Below, piece after piece: positions 1,926-32,934 of a stretch of 32,934 nt of DNA. The position numbers were made by a program, and so were the translations under genes. The stretch covers positions 1-32,934 of the IMG/VR virus record IMGVR_UViG_3300043395_000794; one strand, given 5' to 3'. Source of the stretch: a virus. Under the pieces are notes generated by a model that did no database searches, was not told the origin of the DNA, and saw only the letters and a program-made list of their open reading frames with translations. Each line of letters opens with the position of its first letter. Within the stretch, counting starts at the first letter, position 1.

Positions 1926-4787
1926 CTAGGGTTTGTAGTAGATCCCGTTGGCCCTGCGCAGCTCTTGGAGCTCAAAAATCTTGGCCTGCAATACCGGGTC
2001 TTCAGCGATCAGCTGCTTGCGTGCCACTTCCATGTACTTGGAGTGCACGCCCTGCACCGTCTTCTGTTGCTCGTCCAGAGACAGCACAGCAAAACCAGGC
2101 TGCAGCATGATGTCGCCGATTGATTGCTTGCTGGGCAGCTCTTTGCCGTAGATGGTCAACAGCCGGTTGTACTGGAAGGCATCAAGCTCGACGCCCTGCA
2201 GCTTGCGCTCAGGCATACCGACCGGAGAACCGATGCGCACCAGCGCGTCGTCTACGGGCGAGAACTGGCCAGGGCTCACGCGGGTCGGGAGCACCATCTC
2301 GTAGGCTTTGCCCTGGCTTTGCTGAATCGGGTCTCCCCACAGATTGAGCGATTCGGGCAGACTGTCATTGAAGGCCGGCAGGCGTGAACGGTAGCGGTTG
2401 AAAGCCTCCACAAACCCGCGCAGCCCCATGGGCAGCTCAGGGCTGGCACGCACGTCCTTGGCAGTCGGGTCATACAGACGCTCAATGCTGGCCACCAGGG
2501 AGCTGTACGCACCGGCTGGCGAGCCGCCAATCAGGAAGCCGCCAAACTGTTTGACCAGGCCGTCGACCGCTTTCTTGCCGTCCACCTCAGTGCTGCGCCC
2601 CAGGCCCAGCGCGTTGACCACCTCGGCTGCACCCTGCAGATAGGGCTGCTCCTTGAGGTACTCATACAGGCCATAGGTCGCGCCCAGGAACACCTGCTCG
2701 ACCTTGTCGCTGTCGGGCTCGTGCCTGGCGTATTCGGCATAGTCGGCAGCGATGGCCAGCAGCGCAGAGACCGGCTCCAAACCGGCATAGCTGTAGTAGT
2801 TGTCGCCGACCTTGAAGCTGTACGGTTGCCAGCCCGTGCGCATCAGCGCCTCACGGTCTGCCTTGCGGGTTGGGCCGCTGCCTGTCATGTGGCCTTCAGC
2901 CGACAGGGCAGCAAACGTGGCCAGCAGCCCAGAGCCCAGGGTCACCTTGGCCAGGGCCATGTCGCGGTACACGCCACCCTTGGCAATCTCTTCGCGCCAG
3001 ACGCTGGAGATCGGGGCAAACGGCGTGCGCTCAATCACAGACAATCCGATATTCGCCGGTGTTCTGAAGAAAGGCACCACTACCTTGAGGGCCGGGTGAT
3101 TGAACACCCCCTGCAGCGCCTTCAAAGCAGGCGGCAGATCGGACGTGAATGTGCCCTTCTGCGCGAACTGCATGGCCATGTCGTCCAGATCCCGCGGCGG
3201 GTTTGCCAGCAGGCCCTCGACCTCGACCAGCGATTTGGCCATGGCGTCTGTCTCGCTCATGCCAGCCGCGATGCCCTCACGGTACACGGCCTTGCCGCGG
3301 CGCGTCACCTGGGCGTTGAGCTCCATGCGGTACAGCACGCCCTTGAAGAACTCATCCTCGGTCATCAGCGCCCGGCCTGGTACGGTGATGGCCGTGCCGT
3401 AGTAATCCAGCGCCTTGCCCAGCCACTTGTCCGGGGCAATATCAAAGGCAGCCGATGAGATGCTGGGAGTATCCATCCCGCGCTGCATCTCGATCTTGCT
3501 CATCAGGTCGCTGGGCTGGCCAGTTTTCCACGCACGCGAGGCCAGCTGCAGGCCCTCAACCAGACCGTTGCGCAGCGACTGCACCATGGTCAGGGCCTCG
3601 TCCATGCCGACCCTTTCGGCCTCAGACCCCGGCACCAGCGAGCGCCAGCTGCGCACCGACTGCGGCAGCACATTGCCATAGAAAGCAGCGACCAACCGCT
3701 CGGGGATCTGGTACAGACCAAAGGCCGAATTGCCGATGATGTTCTTGGCGTGAGAGACCGGCGACGACAACAGGCCGTTGATGTACGTGGAAAACCAGAC
3801 GTCCTTGATCCCGCTCATCATGGACTGTTCCATGAGCTGGTTCTGGGCAGCACGCGACTCCAGCGTCAGATAGCTGCGCGCCAAGTCTTGCAGCGCATTG
3901 TCGCCACCGTACTCGTCAAGCACCTGGCGCACAATCTGTGCGCTGCCATCACGCGGGATGCGGAAGACAGCCAGGGCGCGGGCGGTCTCGGTCTGCATAC
4001 CCTTGACGCCCTTTTGCACCAGGCCATGGAAAGCTATCTGCTGGCGCAGCCTCAGCTTATCCACATCGGTCGCTTCCCCACCGGCCACCAGCTTGAAGAG
4101 ACTGTCGAGCTCTTTGGCAGAGCTTTCCAGCACTTCGAGCGCTTTGTAGGTCTCAACCGCGGTTGGCAGCATCTTGCCGTCGTTGCCAACCAAGCGCGAC
4201 AAGAAGGCCTCGGAGATACCGCTCTCCGCAGCTTTTGCCTTGATCTCATCAAACGTGACCGCTTTCGTTTTGATGTTCAATGCGTCGGCCACGCCGGCCA
4301 CCACGCCCGCCGCGTCTTGCGTCTGATAGCGCGCCAGGTTGAAAGGCTCGACCTTGACGTCTTCGCCAGGCCGCGGGCTGGGCTTACCAGTCAGGGCGCC
4401 TTGCTTTTGACGGCGGGAGACAGCAGCCTCGACCTGGGTGGCCACAGCCTCGGGCACTTCGGGGATGAGCTTGAACCGACCAGCCTTGGTGGCCTCGCCC
4501 ATGGCGTCGTCGGCCAGGCCAGGGATCAGCCTGCGCTCAGCCTGTGGCGCCTGCCGGGTGACCGTCTTGCGCACCAAGCCACCGATCACCTTCTCACCCA
4601 CGCTGGCCATAAGCGTTGGGTCGCCGCCCATGTCGGGCGTGCCCGGCTCAAAATCTGGCTGTTCCTCGGCCGGGGGCATCTGCTCGGCCGGCATAGGCTC
4701 CAGCGCAGGCGGCTCGATCGGACCCGCGTCTGCCGGGGTGGCAGGCAGTATGGAATTGAGGCGCTGCTCGAGGGAAGGGATGGCCAT
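1926..4787 (-). CDS. Large internal virion / DNA ejection protein (953 aa)
   Basis: By position, just before the tail fibre and after two other large virion proteins, this is probably the largest DNA ejection protein, analogous in place to T7 gp16. The N-terminal 70 residues are Pro/Glu-rich. The middle is helical. A conserved-looking stretch, LSSPVSHAKNIIGNSAFG followed by VVPFFRTPANIG, resembles a domain of large polyvalent phage proteins. A hydrophobic segment (LGSGLLATFAALSA) lies near residues 625-640. I see no lysozyme or transglycosylase motif, unlike T7 gp16. The ATG at 4787 overlaps the upstream stop as TGATG and has a GGAG site seven bases upstream; a GTG one codon earlier is possible. 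The exact function is inferred. Confidence 0.8.
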   Translation of the reverse strand: MAIPSLEQRLNSILPATPADAGPIEPPALEPMPAEQMPPAEEQPDFEPGTPDMGGDPTLMASVGEKVIGGLVRKTVTRQAPQAERRLIPGLADDAMGEATKAGRFKLIPEVPEAVATQVEAAVSRRQKQGALTGKPSPRPGEDVKVEPFNLARYQTQDAAGVVAGVADALNIKTKAVTFDEIKAKAAESGISEAFLSRLVGNDGKMLPTAVETYKALEVLESSAKELDSLFKLVAGGEATDVDKLRLRQQIAFHGLVQKGVKGMQTETARALAVFRIPRDGSAQIVRQVLDEYGGDNALQDLARSYLTLESRAAQNQLMEQSMMSGIKDVWFSTYINGLLSSPVSHAKNIIGNSAFGLYQIPERLVAAFYGNVLPQSVRSWRSLVPGSEAERVGMDEALTMVQSLRNGLVEGLQLASRAWKTGQPSDLMSKIEMQRGMDTPSISSAAFDIAPDKWLGKALDYYGTAITVPGRALMTEDEFFKGVLYRMELNAQVTRRGKAVYREGIAAGMSETDAMAKSLVEVEGLLANPPRDLDDMAMQFAQKGTFTSDLPPALKALQGVFNHPALKVVVPFFRTPANIGLSVIERTPFAPISSVWREEIAKGGVYRDMALAKVTLGSGLLATFAALSAEGHMTGSGPTRKADREALMRTGWQPYSFKVGDNYYSYAGLEPVSALLAIAADYAEYARHEPDSDKVEQVFLGATYGLYEYLKEQPYLQGAAEVVNALGLGRSTEVDGKKAVDGLVKQFGGFLIGGSPAGAYSSLVASIERLYDPTAKDVRASPELPMGLRGFVEAFNRYRSRLPAFNDSLPESLNLWGDPIQQSQGKAYEMVLPTRVSPGQFSPVDDALVRIGSPVGMPERKLQGVELDAFQYNRLLTIYGKELPSKQSIGDIMLQPGFAVLSLDEQQKTVQGVHSKYMEVARKQLIAEDPVLQAKIFELQELRRANGIYYKP

Positions 4788-21200: not shown

Positions 21201-21310
21201 TACAGGAACCTCCCGCACCGCTTGCAATAAATCTGCAGCCTCGCGCCTCGAGGCCGGGAGCTCCTAAGATGCAGGCGCAGCCCGCACAGAATCCGATCCC
21301 ATAGTCTCAT
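21200..21310 (-). CDS. 36-residue ORF bridging terS and terL
   Basis: The frame MRLWDRILCGLRLHLRSSRP ... YCKRCGRFL fills the 106-base space between the two terminase genes exactly. Its ATG overlaps the terS stop as ATGA and its TAA overlaps the terL start as TAATG. Three cysteines (C9, C29 and C32) could include part of a metal site. The double overlap is the main evidence that it is translated. It may act mainly to couple terL translation to terS. Confidence 0.6.
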   Translation of the reverse strand: MRLWDRILCGLRLHLRSSRPRGARLQIYCKRCGRFL

Positions 21311-21738
21311 GTCTGACCCTCCGATGGCGGCGCCACCACGTTCACGTCAATCACACTGGGCTTGTCACCCTCGTCTGGATTGTCCAGTAGCCCACTGGCC
21401 TTGGCCAGCAGCCTCAGCACCCCAACCTTGTCATACAGCTCAACCTCAAGATGCGAATTGCCATCCTTGTCAGTGCGCACCTTGATGCTCTTGATAGCCT
21501 GCAGCGCGTGCTCAGGAATGTCCGAGGCCCTCTTGACCGTGACATTCCCCCGCTCATCCCAATCCATGATGTCGGTGATCTTCGTGTTGGCCATGCACAG
21601 CAGCGTGTAAGCCACAGCCTCCCGGTTGGCCACAATCGTCGAAGACCTCTCCAGCCTCCTTTGCACCGAGCGGATCCCGCCCCAGTTCTTGAGGCTGGGA
21701 ATCTGCTCCGACATCTTGGGCTTGCCCCTGCTCACCAT
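21307..21738 (-). CDS. terS: Terminase small subunit (143 aa)
   Basis: This is the DNA-recognition subunit of the packaging enzyme, directly upstream of terL. The N-terminal half is helical and could hold the DNA-binding domain. The pattern ITDIMDWDERGNVTVKRASD then IPEHALQAIKSIK and YDKVGVLRLLAKASGLLDNP is typical of phage small terminases of this group. The tail is acidic. The start at 21738 overlaps the upstream gene by seven bases; an internal ATG at 21714 is an alternative. Confidence 0.85.
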   Translation of the reverse strand: MVSRGKPKMSEQIPSLKNWGGIRSVQRRLERSSTIVANREAVAYTLLCMANTKITDIMDWDERGNVTVKRASDIPEHALQAIKSIKVRTDKDGNSHLEVELYDKVGVLRLLAKASGLLDNPDEGDKPSVIDVNVVAPPSEGQT

Positions 21739-22001
21739 GGGATATCGTCTTCAACAGGCTGCGGCTGGAACCCATTTCCCTTCGCTTGGGAATGCGCAGA
21801 TACCTGACCCTGCACCGGGTTTCCAATCTTGCAGCTGATGAACTTCTCTCCAGCCGCCGTGGTATTAGCCCACCCATCAAAATAATGCAGCGTCCCATCA
21901 GGCAACATAATCTTGCCCCTCAAATCAGGATCTTGCTTGTCCGGCCTCTTGTCCTTGTTGCGAAATAAATTCCCGCTGCCAGGCTTTTGTTGGTATGCCA
22001 T
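21732..22001 (-). CDS. Small protein with SSB-like acidic tip (89 aa)
   Basis: An 89-residue protein starting MAYQQKPGSGNLFRNKDKRP. The central part DLRGKIMLPDGTLHYFDGWA then GEKFISCKIG reads as a few beta strands. The last seven residues, VEDDIPW, closely resemble the DDDIPF tip by which bacterial SSB recruits DNA repair and replication proteins. The body is too short and lacks the aromatic pattern of a full SSB, so an OB-fold is not shown. An AAGGAAG ribosome site precedes the ATG. It is the first gene after the hairpin-rich region and is coupled to terS. A role in DNA replication or repair is likely but inferred. Confidence 0.7.
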   Translation of the reverse strand: MAYQQKPGSGNLFRNKDKRPDKQDPDLRGKIMLPDGTLHYFDGWANTTAAGEKFISCKIGNPVQGQVSAHSQAKGNGFQPQPVEDDIPW

Positions 22002-22347: not shown

Positions 22348-22351
22348 TCAC
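22058..22351 (-). CDS. Doubtful Arg/Pro-rich ORF over a structured region (97 aa)
   Basis: A GTG-start frame overlaps the initiator stop as GTGA, the same junction style as real genes here. It reads GSLTASRRLVGRSMRPVQNP then VRLVFGRCSSQGDGSRVLAG. Very similar short peptides recur in my memory in phage and prophage regions where Ash or Icd-like ORFs overlap C4-type antisense RNAs. The composition is otherwise non-globular, and the DNA below it folds into several hairpins. The conserved element may therefore be the RNA and not the peptide. Confidence 0.3.
   Translation of the reverse strand: MICRCPKKTPRRPQEARTQAGWYMGSLTASRRLVGRSMRPVQNPNVRLVFGRCSSQGDGSRVLAGHNAHDDARPQPITRHPPDDGRRTRPFPPPPYR
22199..22280 (-). 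ncRNA. Candidate structured RNA, perhaps C4 antisense-like
   Basis: Three successive stem-loops are visible: TCCAAAC/GTTTGGA (arms 22199-22205 and 22217-22223), AGGCCG/CGGCCT (22232-22237 and 22245-22250), and a stem with one mismatch at 22261-22280 (GGGAAGCC/GGCTACCC). They lie in the 346-base gap between the initiator gene and the SSB-tipped gene. The loop sequences recall the C4 antisense RNA family of P1-like phages, but I cannot run a covariance search. Strand assignment follows the surrounding transcript. Confidence 0.4.
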
Positions 22352-23268
22352 AGCAACCCCCGGCTGGCAGCTGTCAGGGCTCGGAGCTCGGCGGCCAGGC
22401 GCTCGGGATCTGCTGGCAGCTCGAGGCCTTCAGCCGCGTAAGCCGCGCACAAATGTTCGAAAGCGTTTTGTATTTCTTCAGTTTTAATTTCTTCTTTAAA
22501 CCTTTCTTTCAAATACTCTAATACCTTTCTTATAACTACTGTGTTCTTCTCGTTCGGTACAACTTCTGAGGTTGTCGTGGGAAGCTCTCCAGGTTGTGAA
22601 TGCACAACAACCTCTGAGGTTGTGAATGGCTGCTGGTTATCCACAGCCTGGCCGGCTTGCTTTCGCTTGCGTTTGGCCTGGTGTTCTGCGATCTCTTGCT
22701 TCATCTTGCGTGTGGTGATCGTGTCGCCTTGTGGGTTGGTTCTGTTCATGGCTTTGTGCTTCTCCTGGTTGTTGCCCTTGAGTGCGTTGGCCAGCAGCTG
22801 GGCGATGCGTTGCTGGTTTGCTTGGTTTGCTTGCTCTTCCTGTTCTTGTTTCATGTACGGTGGCCTCGTGTCTTCGATTGCACTGGTCAGTGATATTGCG
22901 GTCTCTGCGTCAACTGTTGGGTCAAATATCACCCGCCAGGTTGTGCTGCGCTCGCCTCTGAAATGCTTCTTCATCACCTGCACATAACCCAGCGCCTGGA
23001 GTTTCACCAGGTGCTTGCTGACGGCTTGCTGCGACATTCCAATGGCTGCTGCAAGGGTTTTCTGGCTGACCCAGGTTATTCCTGCGCGGTTTGAATAACT
23101 GGCAATCAGCGCCAGCGCTCGGAAACTCGCATCGGATACCTGCTTGTCCGCGATGGCGCGAATGGGCACCACGGCCATCCTGCGCATATCGGGCGGTGCG
23201 TCCTGCTGCTTGATGCGCGGCTTCTTGGGCAGCTCAAACGGGACAATGTTGTCTGGCATGGCGCTCAT
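22348..23268 (-). CDS. Winged-helix replication initiator-like protein (306 aa)
   Basis: This is the probable origin-binding initiator. Residues about 43-115 form a winged helix-turn-helix: SDASFRALALIASYSN, then TLAAAIGMSQQAVSKHLVKL as the recognition region, then a wing with WRVIFD. Residues 140-210 are a Gln/Lys-rich linker. Residues about 216-237 contain TTSEVV twice, encoded by palindromic DNA iterons. Residues 240-275 are Lys/Glu/Ile-rich because the DNA is very AT-rich. Having origin DNA inside the initiator gene is the arrangement of lambda O. The ATG at 23268 overlaps the upstream stop as ATGA. A transcriptional regulator is the alternative. Confidence 0.75.
   Translation of the reverse strand: MSAMPDNIVPFELPKKPRIKQQDAPPDMRRMAVVPIRAIADKQVSDASFRALALIASYSNRAGITWVSQKTLAAAIGMSQQAVSKHLVKLQALGYVQVMKKHFRGERSTTWRVIFDPTVDAETAISLTSAIEDTRPPYMKQEQEEQANQANQQRIAQLLANALKGNNQEKHKAMNRTNPQGDTITTRKMKQEIAEHQAKRKRKQAGQAVDNQQPFTTSEVVVHSQPGELPTTTSEVVPNEKNTVVIRKVLEYLKERFKEEIKTEEIQNAFEHLCAAYAAEGLELPADPERLAAELRALTAASRGLL
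22451..22550. other. AT-rich unwinding-type element
   Basis: Only 27 of 100 bases are G or C, in a genome that is otherwise GC-rich. The strand shown is pyrimidine-rich, with TTTCTT recurring at about 22473, 22488, 22504 and 22526. This is the expected character of a DNA unwinding element beside iterons. Confidence 0.7.
22559..22629. repeat. Palindromic iterons
   Basis: Two 17-bp near-identical palindromes, ACAACTTCTGAGGTTGT (22559-22575) and ACAACCTCTGAGGTTGT (22607-22623), start 48 bases apart. Between them lies GTTGTG-AATG-CACAAC (22593-22608). AGGTTGTGAATG occurs twice (22591-22602 and 22618-22629). A further CCAGGTTGTG copy is at 22936-22945. These look like binding sites for the initiator encoded by the same DNA. 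Confidence 0.75.
22637..22645 (+). other. DnaA box
   Basis: TTATCCACA is the exact consensus bacterial DnaA-binding nonamer. It stands eight bases from the last iteron-like repeat. Confidence 0.75.
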
Positions 23269-25254: not shown

Positions 25255-25914
25255 ATGGCCACCAAGTTTGTCGCTTACTTCCGGGTTTCGACCGACCGCC
25301 AGGGCCAGTCAGGCCTTGGCCTGGAGGCCCAACGCGAGGCTGTCGCCCGCTATGTCGGCCAGGCCGAGCTGCTCGCCGAGTTCACCGAGGTCGAATCCGG
25401 CCGCAACAACAACCGAGCCCAGCTGGCTGCCGCCCTGGCCGCAGCCAAGCGCGCCAAGGCCACCCTGGTGATTGCCAAGCTCGACCGCCTGGCGCGCAAT
25501 GTGCACTTCATCAGCGGCCTGCTCGAGTCCAACGTGCCGTTTGTCTGCGCCGACGCGCCCGAGGCCGACCGCACATTCCTGCAGATGATGGCCGTGTTTG
25601 CCGAATGGGAAGCCCGCAAAATCAGCGAGCGCACCAAGGCAGCCCTGGCCCAGGTCAAAGCCCAGGGTCGCACTCTCGGCTGTCCCAAGCCCGAGATCGG
25701 CAGCGCCGCAGGCGTGGCCGTGCTCAAGGCCAAGGCATCAGCGTATGCCGAGCGGGTTGGCCCAATCGTGCGTGAGATCCAGGCCAAGGCCGGCGCCAGC
25801 ACCCTGCGCGAGATCGGCCAGGCCCTCGAGGCCCGCGGCGTGGCCACTCCCCGCGGCGGCATGGCCTGGGGTCCGGCACAAGTTTCCAACCTGCTGCAGA
25901 GGCTCGCAATATGA
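25255..25914 (+). CDS. Small serine recombinase, resolvase/invertase family (219 aa)
   Basis: The catalytic domain begins AYFRVSTDRQGQSGLGLEAQ with nucleophile S12. IAKLDRLARNVHFISGLL (K75, D77, R78, R81) is the arginine-bearing active-site motif, and EWEARKISERTKAALAQVKA is the long E helix. The C-terminal part, STLREIGQALEARGVATPRG then WGPAQVSNLLQRL, is a helix-turn-helix DNA-binding region. It lacks the large domains of serine integrases, so it should act like a resolvase or invertase. AGGAG lies eight bases before the ATG. Roles could be multimer resolution of the circular genome, inversion or integration. Confidence 0.93.
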   Translation: MATKFVAYFRVSTDRQGQSGLGLEAQREAVARYVGQAELLAEFTEVESGRNNNRAQLAAALAAAKRAKATLVIAKLDRLARNVHFISGLLESNVPFVCADAPEADRTFLQMMAVFAEWEARKISERTKAALAQVKAQGRTLGCPKPEIGSAAGVAVLKAKASAYAERVGPIVREIQAKAGASTLREIGQALEARGVATPRGGMAWGPAQVSNLLQRLAI

Positions 25915-26072
25915 GCCTGGCCCTGGGCATATTGGTGGCGCTGGCCATCATCGGCCAGGCCGGGTTTATCGCCTGGGCTCACCGCCAGGCATCCAAGCGC
26001 AGCGCCGAGACTGCCAAACGGCGCGCAGATCTGATCGAAAACGAAGCAACCAAACAGGAGATGACCAAGTGA
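25911..26072 (+). CDS. Small membrane protein (53 aa)
   Basis: One N-terminal transmembrane helix (SLALGILVALAIIGQAGFIA) is followed by a basic cytoplasmic-type tail (HRQASKRSAETAKRRADLIE). The ATG overlaps the recombinase stop as ATGA, and the next gene starts at a GTG overlapping its stop as GTGA. No family is recognised. Confidence 0.6.
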   Translation: MSLALGILVALAIIGQAGFIAWAHRQASKRSAETAKRRADLIENEATKQEMTK

Positions 26073-26377: not shown

Positions 26378-26657
26378 GGGGCGCGAGATCAAGCAGCAGC
26401 AGCTGGCCATGTTCGAGGAGCGCGATCACTTATTCTTGGCGCGCTGCCGGGCGTATGCCGCAACTGTGGCCAGGGACCGCGGCCAGGTCTGCATCAACGA
26501 CGTGCGGGAGGCCATTGAAGTGCCGCCCGGCGTGCACCCATCAGTGCTGGGCGCGGTCTTCCGCACCAGGCTGTTCACGGCCATCGGGTTCACCGAGGCC
26601 ACCCACCCCGCTGCGCACGCTCGCGTCGTGCGCGTCTACACACTCAGAAAGGATTGA
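26370..26657 (+). CDS. Hypothetical protein, possible winged-helix-like (95 aa)
   Basis: MSKGREIKQQQLAMFEERDH then LFLARCRAYAATVARDRGQV, CINDVREAIEVPPGVHPSVL and GAVFRTRLFTAIGFTEATHP. The helix-turn-helix-like spacing (VCINDVREAI ... HPSVLGAVF) followed by a strand suggests a small winged-helix fold; similar proteins occur beside phage recombination genes. ATG at 26370 is preferred over longer frames that lie in the previous gene. The fold is an inference. Confidence 0.6.
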   Translation: MSKGREIKQQQLAMFEERDHLFLARCRAYAATVARDRGQVCINDVREAIEVPPGVHPSVLGAVFRTRLFTAIGFTEATHPAAHARVVRVYTLRKD

Positions 26658-26660
26658 CCA

Positions 26661-27617
26661 ATGGCCGGGAAACTGACCGACGACAGAGAGATGAGCGCCA
26701 GCCGCCTGCCAGGGCTTATGGGGTTCAGCAAGTACAGCACGCCAAATGATGAGCTGCAGTTCAGCATCAACGCGATCGACGGCAAAGAGCGCCCCGATAT
26801 CGGCAACGAAGCGATGGCCTGGGGCAACACCCTCGAGCCCGTGATCCTGACCGAGGCAGCCAAACGCCTGGGCCTGGACCGTGTCGAGACCGTGATTGAC
26901 AAACCCTATCGGCACGACGCCATCCCGCTGCAGTGCTCGCTCGACGGTGTTGGCTACGGCAGCGGCCAGGAAATTGTCAGCGACCCAGACAAGGGCATCG
27001 TTGTAGTTGGCCAGGAAAAAATATTTCTCGACGGGCCGGGCGTGCTTGAGGCCAAGCTGACAAAGGTCGCCCCGGAGGAGACCCCGCACCTGGCGCGTGG
27101 GCCCGTGCAACTGCAGGGCCAGCTGCTGGTGACCGGCCACAAGTGGGGCGCCGTCTGCGTGCTCTACGAAGGGATTGCGCTGCGGGTGTTCCTGTTCGCG
27201 CCGCACATGGAAACCCAGAAGGCCATCATCAAGGCCGTGACCGAGTTCCAGCACAAGCTGGACAAGTACACGCGGGACGGCGAGATCGAATGGTATGCGC
27301 CGCAGTCCACCGATGAGCTCAATCGGATCTACCCGACAGCCCAGGACCGCACCGTCGATCTGTCTGCCGGCCTTGAGGCACTGGTGGCTAGCATCCAGGC
27401 CAGCAAGGCCACCATTAAGGCCGCGGAGAAGTCGATCGGCGAATGCGAGAAGCAGATCAAGGAGGCCATGGGAACCGCCGAGCGCGGCAGGGCTGGCAAG
27501 TGGATGGTGGCCTGGCCGATGCGCCACTATCAGGCACAGCCCGCCAAGACGGTGCCAGCCAAGGAAGCCTACAGCATTCGACAGTCGACGCTGACGATTA
27601 AGGAGGCCAAGCCGTGA
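26661..27617 (+). CDS. YqaJ-type viral recombinase exonuclease (318 aa)
   Basis: This is probably a 5'-3' double-strand exonuclease of the PD-(D/E)xK superfamily that makes single strands for the RecT-like partner. Motifs are SRLPGLMGFSKYSTP (N-terminal), AMAWGNTLEPVILTEA (E59), QCSLDG (D95), GVLEAKLTK (E130, K132) and PVQLQGQLLVTGHKWGAV, in the order of the lambda-exonuclease fold. Residues about 230-275 form a coiled coil, common in YqaJ proteins. It is placed 5' of recT, as is usual for such pairs. Confidence 0.92.
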   Translation: MAGKLTDDREMSASRLPGLMGFSKYSTPNDELQFSINAIDGKERPDIGNEAMAWGNTLEPVILTEAAKRLGLDRVETVIDKPYRHDAIPLQCSLDGVGYGSGQEIVSDPDKGIVVVGQEKIFLDGPGVLEAKLTKVAPEETPHLARGPVQLQGQLLVTGHKWGAVCVLYEGIALRVFLFAPHMETQKAIIKAVTEFQHKLDKYTRDGEIEWYAPQSTDELNRIYPTAQDRTVDLSAGLEALVASIQASKATIKAAEKSIGECEKQIKEAMGTAERGRAGKWMVAWPMRHYQAQPAKTVPAKEAYSIRQSTLTIKEAKP

Positions 27618-27790
27618 ACGTAGCCGCCCTCGAGCAGGCATACGAAAAGGCCGTCTTGGCCTTTCTCAATGCCGTGCCAACCGCATCAGAAAAGCAGGCC
27701 GAGGCCTGCGTCGAAGCAATCGCCGAGATGGTGCTCGCCACCCTCGCATCACAACTGACAGAGGATTCTCATGCAACTGACCACCACTAA
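27614..27790 (+). CDS. Small hypothetical protein between exonuclease and annealing protein (58 aa)
   Basis: GTG start with a full AAGGAGG site seven bases upstream. It overlaps the exonuclease stop as GTGA. It encodes a helical protein: MNVAALEQAYEKAVLAFLNA then VPTASEKQAEACVEAIAEMV. The last 20 bases overlap the recT start. No family is recognised. Confidence 0.6.
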   Translation: MNVAALEQAYEKAVLAFLNAVPTASEKQAEACVEAIAEMVLATLASQLTEDSHATDHH

Positions 27791-28811
27791 CCAACGCGGC
27801 TTTGCGCCCGCCACAATCACCGAGGCCATCCACTTCAGCGAGATGCTGGCTGGCAGCAACATGGTCCCAAAGGCCTACCAGGGCAAGCCGCAGGACATTC
27901 TCGTCTGCGTCCAGTGGGGCTATGAAATCGGCCTGGCGCCCATGCAAGCGCTGCAAAACATCGCCGTGATTAACGGCAAGCCCAGCGTGTACGGTGACGC
28001 GGCGCTGGCCTTGGTGCAGGCCTCGCCCGTCTGCGAGGATATCGAGGAGCGCTTCGAGGGCGAGGAGGGCACCGGCAAGTTCATGGCCGTCTGCGTGGCC
28101 AAGCGCCGCGGCCGCCAGCCGGTCGTTTGCACGTTCTCTGTCGAGGATGCCAGGCGTGCCGGTCTGTGGGGCAAGCAAGGGCCCTGGCAGGCCTACCCCA
28201 AGCGGATGCTGCAGATGCGCGCCCGCGGCTTCGCCCTGCGCGACGCCTTCCCCGACGTGCTCAAGGGCCTCATCACGGCCGAGGAGGCGCAGGACTACCC
28301 CGAGGAGCGCGAGCGCCCCATCAAGGACATCACCCCGCGCAAGGCGGCCAACCCGCTGGATGCCATTGCGCCGCCAGAGCCGCCGCCCCTGGAGCTCGAG
28401 GCCCCGTCGGTGACCGAGGCCGAGATCATGGGCGTCGAGCTGCCGGTCGTGGAGATGGAGTTCTCAACCCAGGAGAACTACCCAGACCCCCAGGTCAGCG
28501 ACCCGGAGCCCGTGGACATTGACGGCCAGGCCTTCGACCCTCCCGCGCCGTCAGGGTTCCAGCTGCTGGCGCCCGGCCAGGACAAGCCGCTGGCCGTGCT
28601 CCAGACCCTCGACGCCTGGCAGGATGCCTACGAACAGATGGCCGACAAAATCGCCCGTTCACGCAAGCATGAGCCCCGCGAGCGCATGACCAAGCTGCGG
28701 GAGTTCCGCGAGGCCAATGAGTCAATCATGCGCAGCATTGACAGCACCAAGCGGCTGCGGCACACGGCAGCGCAGTCCCAGCGCTTAGCCGCCCTGGGCG
28801 CTGCTCAGTAG
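27771..28811 (+). CDS. recT: RecT-family single-strand annealing protein (346 aa)
   Basis: This anneals complementary single strands and pairs with the upstream exonuclease. The core at residues 15-170 matches the family: ITEAIHFSEMLAGSNMVPKA, YQGKPQDILVCVQWGYEIGL, APMQALQNIAVINGKPSVYG, and later PKRMLQMRARGFALRDAFPD. The C-terminal half is an acidic Pro-rich linker followed by a short helical domain, longer than in E. coli RecT. It is the last rightward gene; its stop overlaps the endolysin stop on the other strand by seven bases. Confidence 0.92.
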   Translation: MQLTTTNQRGFAPATITEAIHFSEMLAGSNMVPKAYQGKPQDILVCVQWGYEIGLAPMQALQNIAVINGKPSVYGDAALALVQASPVCEDIEERFEGEEGTGKFMAVCVAKRRGRQPVVCTFSVEDARRAGLWGKQGPWQAYPKRMLQMRARGFALRDAFPDVLKGLITAEEAQDYPEERERPIKDITPRKAANPLDAIAPPEPPPLELEAPSVTEAEIMGVELPVVEMEFSTQENYPDPQVSDPEPVDIDGQAFDPPAPSGFQLLAPGQDKPLAVLQTLDAWQDAYEQMADKIARSRKHEPRERMTKLREFREANESIMRSIDSTKRLRHTAAQSQRLAALGAAQ

Positions 28812-31834: not shown

Positions 31835-32934
31835 TTAAACTCGATAGAACCCGGTTAATCCTTCAATTTCTCCAGCCGTGTCCATTGGCACATTCGTGGC
31901 AGCCCCTCCACCCGTAGGCAACTGACGCAAATTGATTTCGGATGTTCCTTGATCTTGCAGTGCTGCCGGAACATTATTTGCGGTCAAAGCAATGTTTGCA
32001 AAGTACGATGTGTAAGTTGCAGGATTTGTCGTTGCATTGTTAGAAGTGAACGGCAAACCAGTTATTTTCATGTTTCCAGTGCCTGTGTGGGCAGTCCACC
32101 GAATTGTGATGGTAATAAATACTTGATTGCCGATTTTCGTGTACCAACCCGCTTGAAGTGTGTAAGTTCCAGTTCCGGCGCTTGTTGTCCCCACAATTAC
32201 AGGCGTGAACGTGCCTTCCTCATAGTCATCCAACGTGTTGGCGTCGGACGATGCGGATTGGGCTGAGGGGAAGGTGATGCCTACGCCGGATGAATTTGGC
32301 GCAGTGCCGCCAAGACCGATAGATTTGACCATCTGCAAACCATCGGTAACTATCCGAGCGCGTTCGGTGGAGTTAGTGCGAATTCGTAAATCGGTGTTGG
32401 TTATAGTTTCAAGGATTGCCAACCCCGACTGCGCGTTAATACGCATAGCCGAAGTTGCATCAGCAGACTCTACCGTCGCAGATGCGTCTGTACCTTTAAC
32501 GTGCAGTTGATAACCGGGAGAGCTTACGCCAATACCGAGGCTACCCGCAGCACTCAGCGTCATCACCTGACTGAACGAGATGGCGTTTCCTGCGGTGCCA
32601 GAGGCGGCGTTGAACCAGCGGTGTTGTCCAAGAACTTGTGAGTAATACGATGCCTGTGCAGAGTTCTTGTAAATCCAGTTGGTGCCATTGTTGTATGCGT
32701 TAGCAGCAATTACCGGATACAAACCAGCGATTGCCTGTCCTGCGGACGAATACTGCATCTCAAGAACGCGCCAATCCGCTCCCCAAGCACTCGGCGTCAC
32801 CCCCAGACCGAGGTTGCCGGAGGTATCCAGCGTTGCTTGTGTTGTCGAGTTAGTTCTCAGCAATAAGGAGTGGTTTGATGTAGTGCCAAATAGCAACGCA
32901 CCACTGTTTTGCAGCCTTGAAGTTACCGTGCCGT
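31835..32934 (-). CDS. T7-type tail fibre, C-terminal third (gene begins at 1889)
   Basis: This holds residues 630-954 of the fibre; bases 32811-32934 repeat window positions 1-124. Fibre-type repeats are visible: GNLGLGVTPSAWGADWRVLE and GSLGIGVSSPGYQLHVKGTD. The C-terminal domain starts LDDYEEGTFTPVIVG and contains GWYTKIGNQVFITITIRW and GNMKITGLPF, a receptor-binding tip shared by many unrelated phages. No S74 chaperone domain is present, so no self-cleavage is expected. Local GC is much lower than in the structural genes (54 of 120 bases at 31981-32100), which suggests acquisition from another phage. Confidence 0.9.
   Translation of the reverse strand, partial: GTVTSRLQNSGALLFGTTSNHSLLLRTNSTTQATLDTSGNLGLGVTPSAWGADWRVLEMQYSSAGQAIAGLYPVIAANAYNNGTNWIYKNSAQASYYSQVLGQHRWFNAASGTAGNAISFSQVMTLSAAGSLGIGVSSPGYQLHVKGTDASATVESADATSAMRINAQSGLAILETITNTDLRIRTNSTERARIVTDGLQMVKSIGLGGTAPNSSGVGITFPSAQSASSDANTLDDYEEGTFTPVIVGTTSAGTGTYTLQAGWYTKIGNQVFITITIRWTAHTGTGNMKITGLPFTSNNATTNPATYTSYFANIALTANNVPAALQDQGTSEINLRQLPTGGGAATNVPMDTAGEIEGLTGFYRV
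32811..32934. repeat. Terminal overlap, right copy
   Basis: Identical to 1-124. See the left copy. Confidence 0.95.

Follow-up and report, generated by a model that had tools for sequence, protein, structure and literature searches.

The origin of phage lambda has four direct iterons and no DnaA boxes. This origin lies inside gene O, so the initiator gene itself holds the iterons and then an A+T tract (PMC7466680). In the Rep protein of staphylococcal pSK41, an N-terminal winged helix-turn-helix (HTH) and a conserved C-terminal domain are joined by a dispensable central linker, which the ori itself encodes, and the hybrid Rep of pPR9 has an N-terminal HTH of family PF13730 (PMC5703833). In the PLE of V. 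cholerae, the origin-binding domain of RepA and the semi-palindromic iterons of the ori co-vary as interchangeable modules, and a phage nuclease attacks such origins (PMC8263062). The closest cultured phage to the virus analysed here is MEP301 (a Methylophilales phage of a marine methylotroph; 72% identity in the large terminase subunit, TerL, and 66% in the small one, TerS), in which its authors found neither a DNA nor an RNA polymerase (PMC8024684); in the open-access literature we came across no origin described for this phage group.

The DNA studied here (hereafter, the window) is the IMG/VR virus record IMGVR_UViG_3300043395_000794, positions 1 to 32,934. The ends of the contig overlap exactly over 124 bases (1-124 = 32811-32934), which suggests that the genome is circular or permuted and 32,810 bp long. 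A first-pass annotation, made from the sequence alone, had described a T7-plan podovirus with no DNA polymerase, primase or helicase, and both points hold: PHROGs recognize a T7-like connector, tail tube A/B and internal virion proteins (phrog_332, 394, 376, 6651), and neither the domain search of the record (DnaB_C, DNA_pol_A, DnaG zinc ribbon) nor the PHROG comparison (DNA polymerase, helicase, primase) gave a match. A helicase-loader gene (P or DnaC-like) is likewise missing among the PHROG and Pfam matches of the record. The DNA-metabolism genes found are those for the initiator, an SSB-like protein, RusA, a YqaJ exonuclease with RecT, and a serine recombinase. The recombinase has its N-terminal domain at 25255-25914 (plus strand; PF00239, E 6.5e-28) and a weakly matched Recombinase domain, as does MEP301 ORF4; it is an integrase-like protein, and no prophage relatives of the phage are known. 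The YqaJ-type exonuclease (26661-27617, plus strand) adjoins the RecT annealing protein (27771-28811, plus strand) as a recombination pair on the strand opposite most genes, and the minus-strand ORFs at 25350-25982 and 26541-27641, which face the resolvase and YqaJ genes, are apparently antisense ORFs. With the genome circularised, no significant switch is seen in its cumulative G-C skew (p=0.11 by block shuffle), a result that neither supports nor refutes an origin.

We consider it highly likely that positions 22449-22645 are a theta-type origin located in the gene of its own initiator, at which initiator dimers bind, the DNA is melted and the host replisome is recruited. The use of an origin inside the initiator gene appears, from the comparison of relatives, to extend across a widespread group of uncultivated bacterial viruses. 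The features concerned are the following (positions in the window):

22348-23268, minus strand: initiator gene, 306 aa (PF13730, E 6e-8; PHROGs match; AlphaFold2 mean pLDDT 80)
22930-23163, minus strand: winged-helix DNA-binding domain, residues 36-113 (Pfam, AlphaFold2)
22990-23031, minus strand: recognition helix, residues 80-93 (AlphaFold2 model)
23029-23031 and 23014-23016, minus strand: specificity positions Gln80 and Lys85, respectively (from helix/iteron co-variation)
22552-22662, minus strand: predicted disordered linker, residues 203-239 (pLDDT < 50), whose codons hold all iterons and the DnaA box
22637-22645, minus strand: DnaA box, TGTGGATAA on the gene strand, TTATCCACA on the plus strand
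22607-22623, no strand: iteron palindrome ACAACCTCTGAGGTTGT, 17 bp, perfect arms (ACAACCTCAGAGGTTGT on the gene strand)
22591-22597, no strand: iteron half-site AGGTTGT
22559-22575, no strand: iteron palindrome ACAACTTCTGAGGTTGT, 17 bp, one mismatch between arms
22449-22550, no strand: A+T-rich block, 27 G/C per 100 bp, position conserved in relatives
22363-22551, minus strand: C-terminal three-helix domain, residues 240-302 (predicted structure)
21732-22001, minus strand: SSB-like gene that comes next after the initiator, related to MEP301 gp50
21307-21738, minus strand: terminase small subunit, TerS (PF03592, E 6.6e-6; 66% identical to MEP301 gp49)

In the AlphaFold2 model, the initiator is formed by a winged helix, a long helix, the disordered linker and the C-terminal three-helix domain, in this order. 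PHROGs place it with "replication initiation protein/O-like" families (E 1.5e-8 to 2.2e-8, including phrog_678 with E 1.6e-8 and phrog_391 with E 2.2e-8). The best PDB fold matches of the winged-helix domain, which are weak (E 0.0035-0.006), include the initiator chains 4pt7 and 4pql, which we take to be RepA_N proteins. The search of PDB and viral folds returned winged-helix matches only, with nothing decisive for the C-terminal domain. Neither the RepA_N domain (PF06970, to E 0.1) nor Rep_3 (PF01051) is among the Pfam matches of the initiator, and no DnaD-type C-terminal domain was detected in it.

Read on the gene strand, the elements follow one another as winged-helix codons, DnaA box, palindrome, half-site, second palindrome, A+T block and stop codon, the palindromes being repeats of the form ACAACCT-N3-AGGTTGT. 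The first-pass annotation had seen a perfect DnaA box, two 17-bp palindromes 48 bases apart with further half-sites, and a 100-bp block with 27 G/C, all inside a winged-helix gene; each of these is present, with the one arm mismatch at 22559-22575 as a refinement. Additionally, AGGTTGTGAATG occurs at 22591-22602 and is repeated at 22617-22628. The 100-bp segments with 27 G/C start at 22449 and 22451 and are the most A+T-rich of the genome (at least 38 G/C everywhere outside this stretch). As a null model for the single gene we used 2000 synonymous-codon shuffles. Since the A+T block was reached in none of them (0/2000), it is not a by-product of the protein sequence. We propose it as a candidate DNA unwinding element. 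Three copies of AGGTTGTG/CACAACCT are also rarely obtained by shuffling (p=0.001), and the values are p=0.02 for the DnaA box alone, p=0.17 for the palindromes alone and p=0.32 for the 12-mer repeats. A single DnaA box means little, because TTATCCACA/TGTGGATAA occurs again at 4057 and 20168. In this sequence alone the repeats are moderately unusual, and it is the comparison with relatives that makes them certain.

Relatives were collected in two ways. A search on DNA only, with the pattern ACAACCTN{3,4}AGGTTGTN{0,30}AGGTTGT and no protein information, matched 36 viral contigs, in 32 of which the array lies inside an initiator homologue and at the same place, between the winged helix and the C-terminal domain. 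A protein-profile search had 504 contigs as matches, and the best 80 of them were taken; at least three exact AGGTTGT/ACAACCT half-sites are present in 55 of the 81 genes read, and the genes without exact half-sites have, on inspection, mostly variant arrays at the same place. Further protein-based scans gave 186 complete genes, reduced to 70 at 95% non-redundancy. The first-pass annotation had named homologues without the repeats and the A+T block as evidence against an origin, and the check speaks for one: the A+T minimum is found 145-257 nt before the stop codon in 70/70 of these genes, with the repeats just upstream of it in nearly all, so that the order winged helix, repeats, A+T block is common to the relatives recruited by protein. 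Against synonymous shuffles, this minimum reaches p<=0.05 in 50/55 genes. The half-sites, whose commonest spacings are 11 and 22 bp, occur across the relatives on either strand and in each of the three codon frames, which means that DNA and not a peptide is conserved. A de novo 7-mer score per gene reached p<=0.05 in 38/55 genes (the gene of the window failed); this score is too blunt, as variants differ within an array, and class counts were used instead. The codon-frame data also refute the reading in which the repeats reflect selection on a repetitive linker peptide (motifs TTSEVV and QPPEVV) and have no function as DNA. Although both palindromes in the window encode TTSEVV, the same 7-mers are found in every frame and on both strands across the relatives, the linker is predicted to be disordered and the repeats track the recognition helix, which leaves this reading with hardly any probability, the smallest of those weighed here.

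The exact DnaA box is present 30 times in the 3' parts of homologous genes (37 kb) and four times in 515 kb of phage DNA flanking them (an enrichment of about 104-fold), with 1.7 expected from codon shuffling. Boxes with one mismatch are found in 41 genes, about twice the expectation (16-24 by shuffle). All sense-strand boxes share one codon frame (x-Val-Asp-Asn/Lys), and their conservation may therefore owe something to a conserved peptide, though the shuffle allows for it. The earlier proposal that host DnaA is recruited is thus sustained in part: 27/70 genes contain an exact box, whereas 43/70 do not, and for this reason the help of DnaA is probably facultative or given through weaker boxes.

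The strongest evidence is a code that relates the recognition helix to the repeats. Arrays were classed by their commonest half-site and the helix was read as S/T-x80-Q-x-x-x-x85. Gln80 is found with ACAACC (35/35), Arg80 (with Lys or Arg at 85) with GCAACC (17/17), Lys80 with TCAACC (5/5) and Arg80 together with Asn85 with GGACAC (9/9), so that all 66 classifiable members of the 70 obey the code (four genes are unclassifiable), a count made on the same data from which the code was read. Contacts of Gln with A and of Arg with G are classical in direct readout. On a tree built without the recognition helix, iteron class and helix state change ten times each; the independent contrasts on well-supported branches agree in 6/6 cases (sign test p=0.031), six being a small number. 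Gln80, which is fully determined by iteron class, is the leading predictor of this class among 273 columns once residues encoded by the iterons are excluded (residue 209 outranks it only because the iteron itself encodes this residue, and was rejected as top predictor). Compared in blocks of 90 nt, two sister genes (L014 and L084) show mostly 81-95% identity, but only 47-66% over the iterons, their helices and all their iterons differing as the code predicts; each array retains a DnaA box, and the two boxes are oppositely oriented. Members outside the 70-gene set mostly obey the code as well. Among the departures, L133, L262 and L264 have Lys80 with mixed ACAACC/TCAACC arrays (L146 is also mixed or unmatched), L160 (2986-3888) and L177 have Arg80 and Asn85 without GGACAC and with GGTCAGCC-like repeats, and L043 and L044 pair His80 with GCAACC; the arrays of the two latter pairs are iteron variants beyond the four-state code.

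The co-variation between recognition helix and iterons indicates that protein and site evolve as lock and key, and it supports the earlier claim that the protein binds its own gene, which is very probably the case (the evidence is strong, short of proof). It speaks for binding, and not for the purpose of binding. The sites could also be an autoregulatory operator, where a winged-helix repressor bound to its own gene would block RNA polymerase during elongation and play no part in replication; the winged helix is MarR/ArsR-like and palindromic sites are typical for dimeric repressors. The sites are, however, about 600 nt inside the gene and not at a promoter, the conserved A+T block and the enriched DnaA boxes would be unneeded by an operator, and PHROGs group the protein with replication initiators. 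We regard an operator without replication role as unlikely; autoregulation may coexist with the role as origin.

The gene order initiator, SSB-like, terS, terL is kept in the 17 longer loci compared. This proximity to terL would favour a different assignment, with the presumed initiator as the small terminase and the repeats as a pac site, as in some headful phages (P22, SPP1), which have their pac site within their own TerS gene. We rejected it because a separate TerS is encoded at 21307-21738, its place before terL being kept in relatives, and the DnaA boxes and A+T block are unfit for packaging; the probability left to it is very small. Across the compared loci, the initiator is 35-54% identical, versus 72-94% for TerL. 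In a subset of contigs (L044, L047, L058, L060-L062, L064, L065, L068, L087, L090 and L106), the initiator is 41-54% identical to that of the window, TerL 85-94% and the capsid and connector genes mostly 73-95%. The initiator/ori cassette seems, from these identities, to diverge or to be exchanged much faster than the packaging genes. A tentative idea, to which we give somewhat less than even chances, is that the initiator/origin cassettes are mutually exclusive replicon identities, in which few helix residues read few iteron bases, and that they diversify far faster than the rest of the genome because a rare specificity offers an escape from incompatibility, from parasitic satellites or from origin-directed nucleases; identity among the contigs compared is 40-54% in the initiator where it is 78-94% in TerL.

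Relatives of the initiator are present in hundreds of viral contigs and in none of 84,980 bacterial and archaeal genomes, which we read as hosts that are unsequenced or phages that are strictly lytic; the hosts are probably Proteobacteria. The same absence gives no sign of a maintained prophage plasmid and bears on whether the array could be a partition or plasmid-maintenance site (a centromere) bound by the winged-helix protein. Repeated palindromes and a DNA-binding protein encoded by the element itself would fit such a site, but no partition ATPase is among the PHROG and Pfam matches, and the A+T block and DnaA box indicate an origin; a centromere is, like the pac site, most improbable.

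The layout, its conservation, the constraint at the DNA level and the helix/iteron co-variation were computed here; origin activity and the recruitment of DnaB are inferred. In the mechanism that we propose, dimers of the winged-helix initiator would bind the palindromic iterons in their own coding sequence, with host DnaA binding beside them where a DnaA box is present, and the resulting nucleoprotein complex would melt the A+T-rich block that lies directly 3' of the iterons. The C-terminal helical domain, for which we propose a contact with the host replisome, would then bring in the host replicative helicase or primase, a step put forward because no helicase, primase or polymerase was detected in the phage. 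The protein can tolerate this requirement on the DNA since the codons that hold the iterons are those of the disordered linker. In hundreds of uncultivated viral contigs the gene is annotated as a helix-turn-helix protein at most; this reading assigns it a function, and would explain how the podoviruses of this group, which lack a polymerase, can replicate. It also yields a natural set of sequences, open to alignment, in which the specificity of an initiator can be read from few residues, with its target in the same gene, making replicon specificity and evolution directly testable and compatible or incompatible replicons predictable from sequence.

The only cultured relative of the initiator that we found is MEP301 gp55 (35% identity over 120 residues), which is annotated as hypothetical and is shorter than the protein of the window; no comparable palindromic iteron array was found in its gene. 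With the PLE the locus shares the co-variation of initiator and iterons, but the origin of PLE is intergenic, with two specificity groups described, while here the proposed origin lies within the gene and at least four states are tied to named helix residues. The lambda-like character claimed in the first-pass annotation applies to layout and not to detectable ancestry. As in lambda ori/O (and the origins of Stx phages), iterons and then an A+T tract lie within the initiator gene; by the same measure, lambda O has iterons at 348-432 of the gene and reaches its A+T minimum at 435. No homology to lambda O was detected (hhalign gave a probability of 0.3%, HMMER stayed below threshold, and the Pfam matches to E 0.1 include no lambda O family), the iterons here are 17-18 bp palindromes plus half-sites, and the next genes are SSB-like and terS, whereas in lambda gene P adjoins O. 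By analogy, the layout is even more like that of the pSK41 and pPR9 Rep proteins than that of ori-lambda: it shares with pSK41 Rep (RepA_N) a length of about 300 aa and, in the predicted fold, the N-terminal winged HTH, a linker that coincides with the iterons and a C-terminal domain, and with pPR9 Rep the HTH of PF13730. It differs from RepA_N in having no RepA_N match and no detected DnaD-type C-terminal domain, in its DnaA boxes and in its hosts, probably Proteobacteria. Given the lack of lambda O homology and of a RepA_N domain, we file the locus with neither, and regard this initiator and its probable origin as a new family, with a mode of working already known from lambda ori/O and pSK41 Rep.
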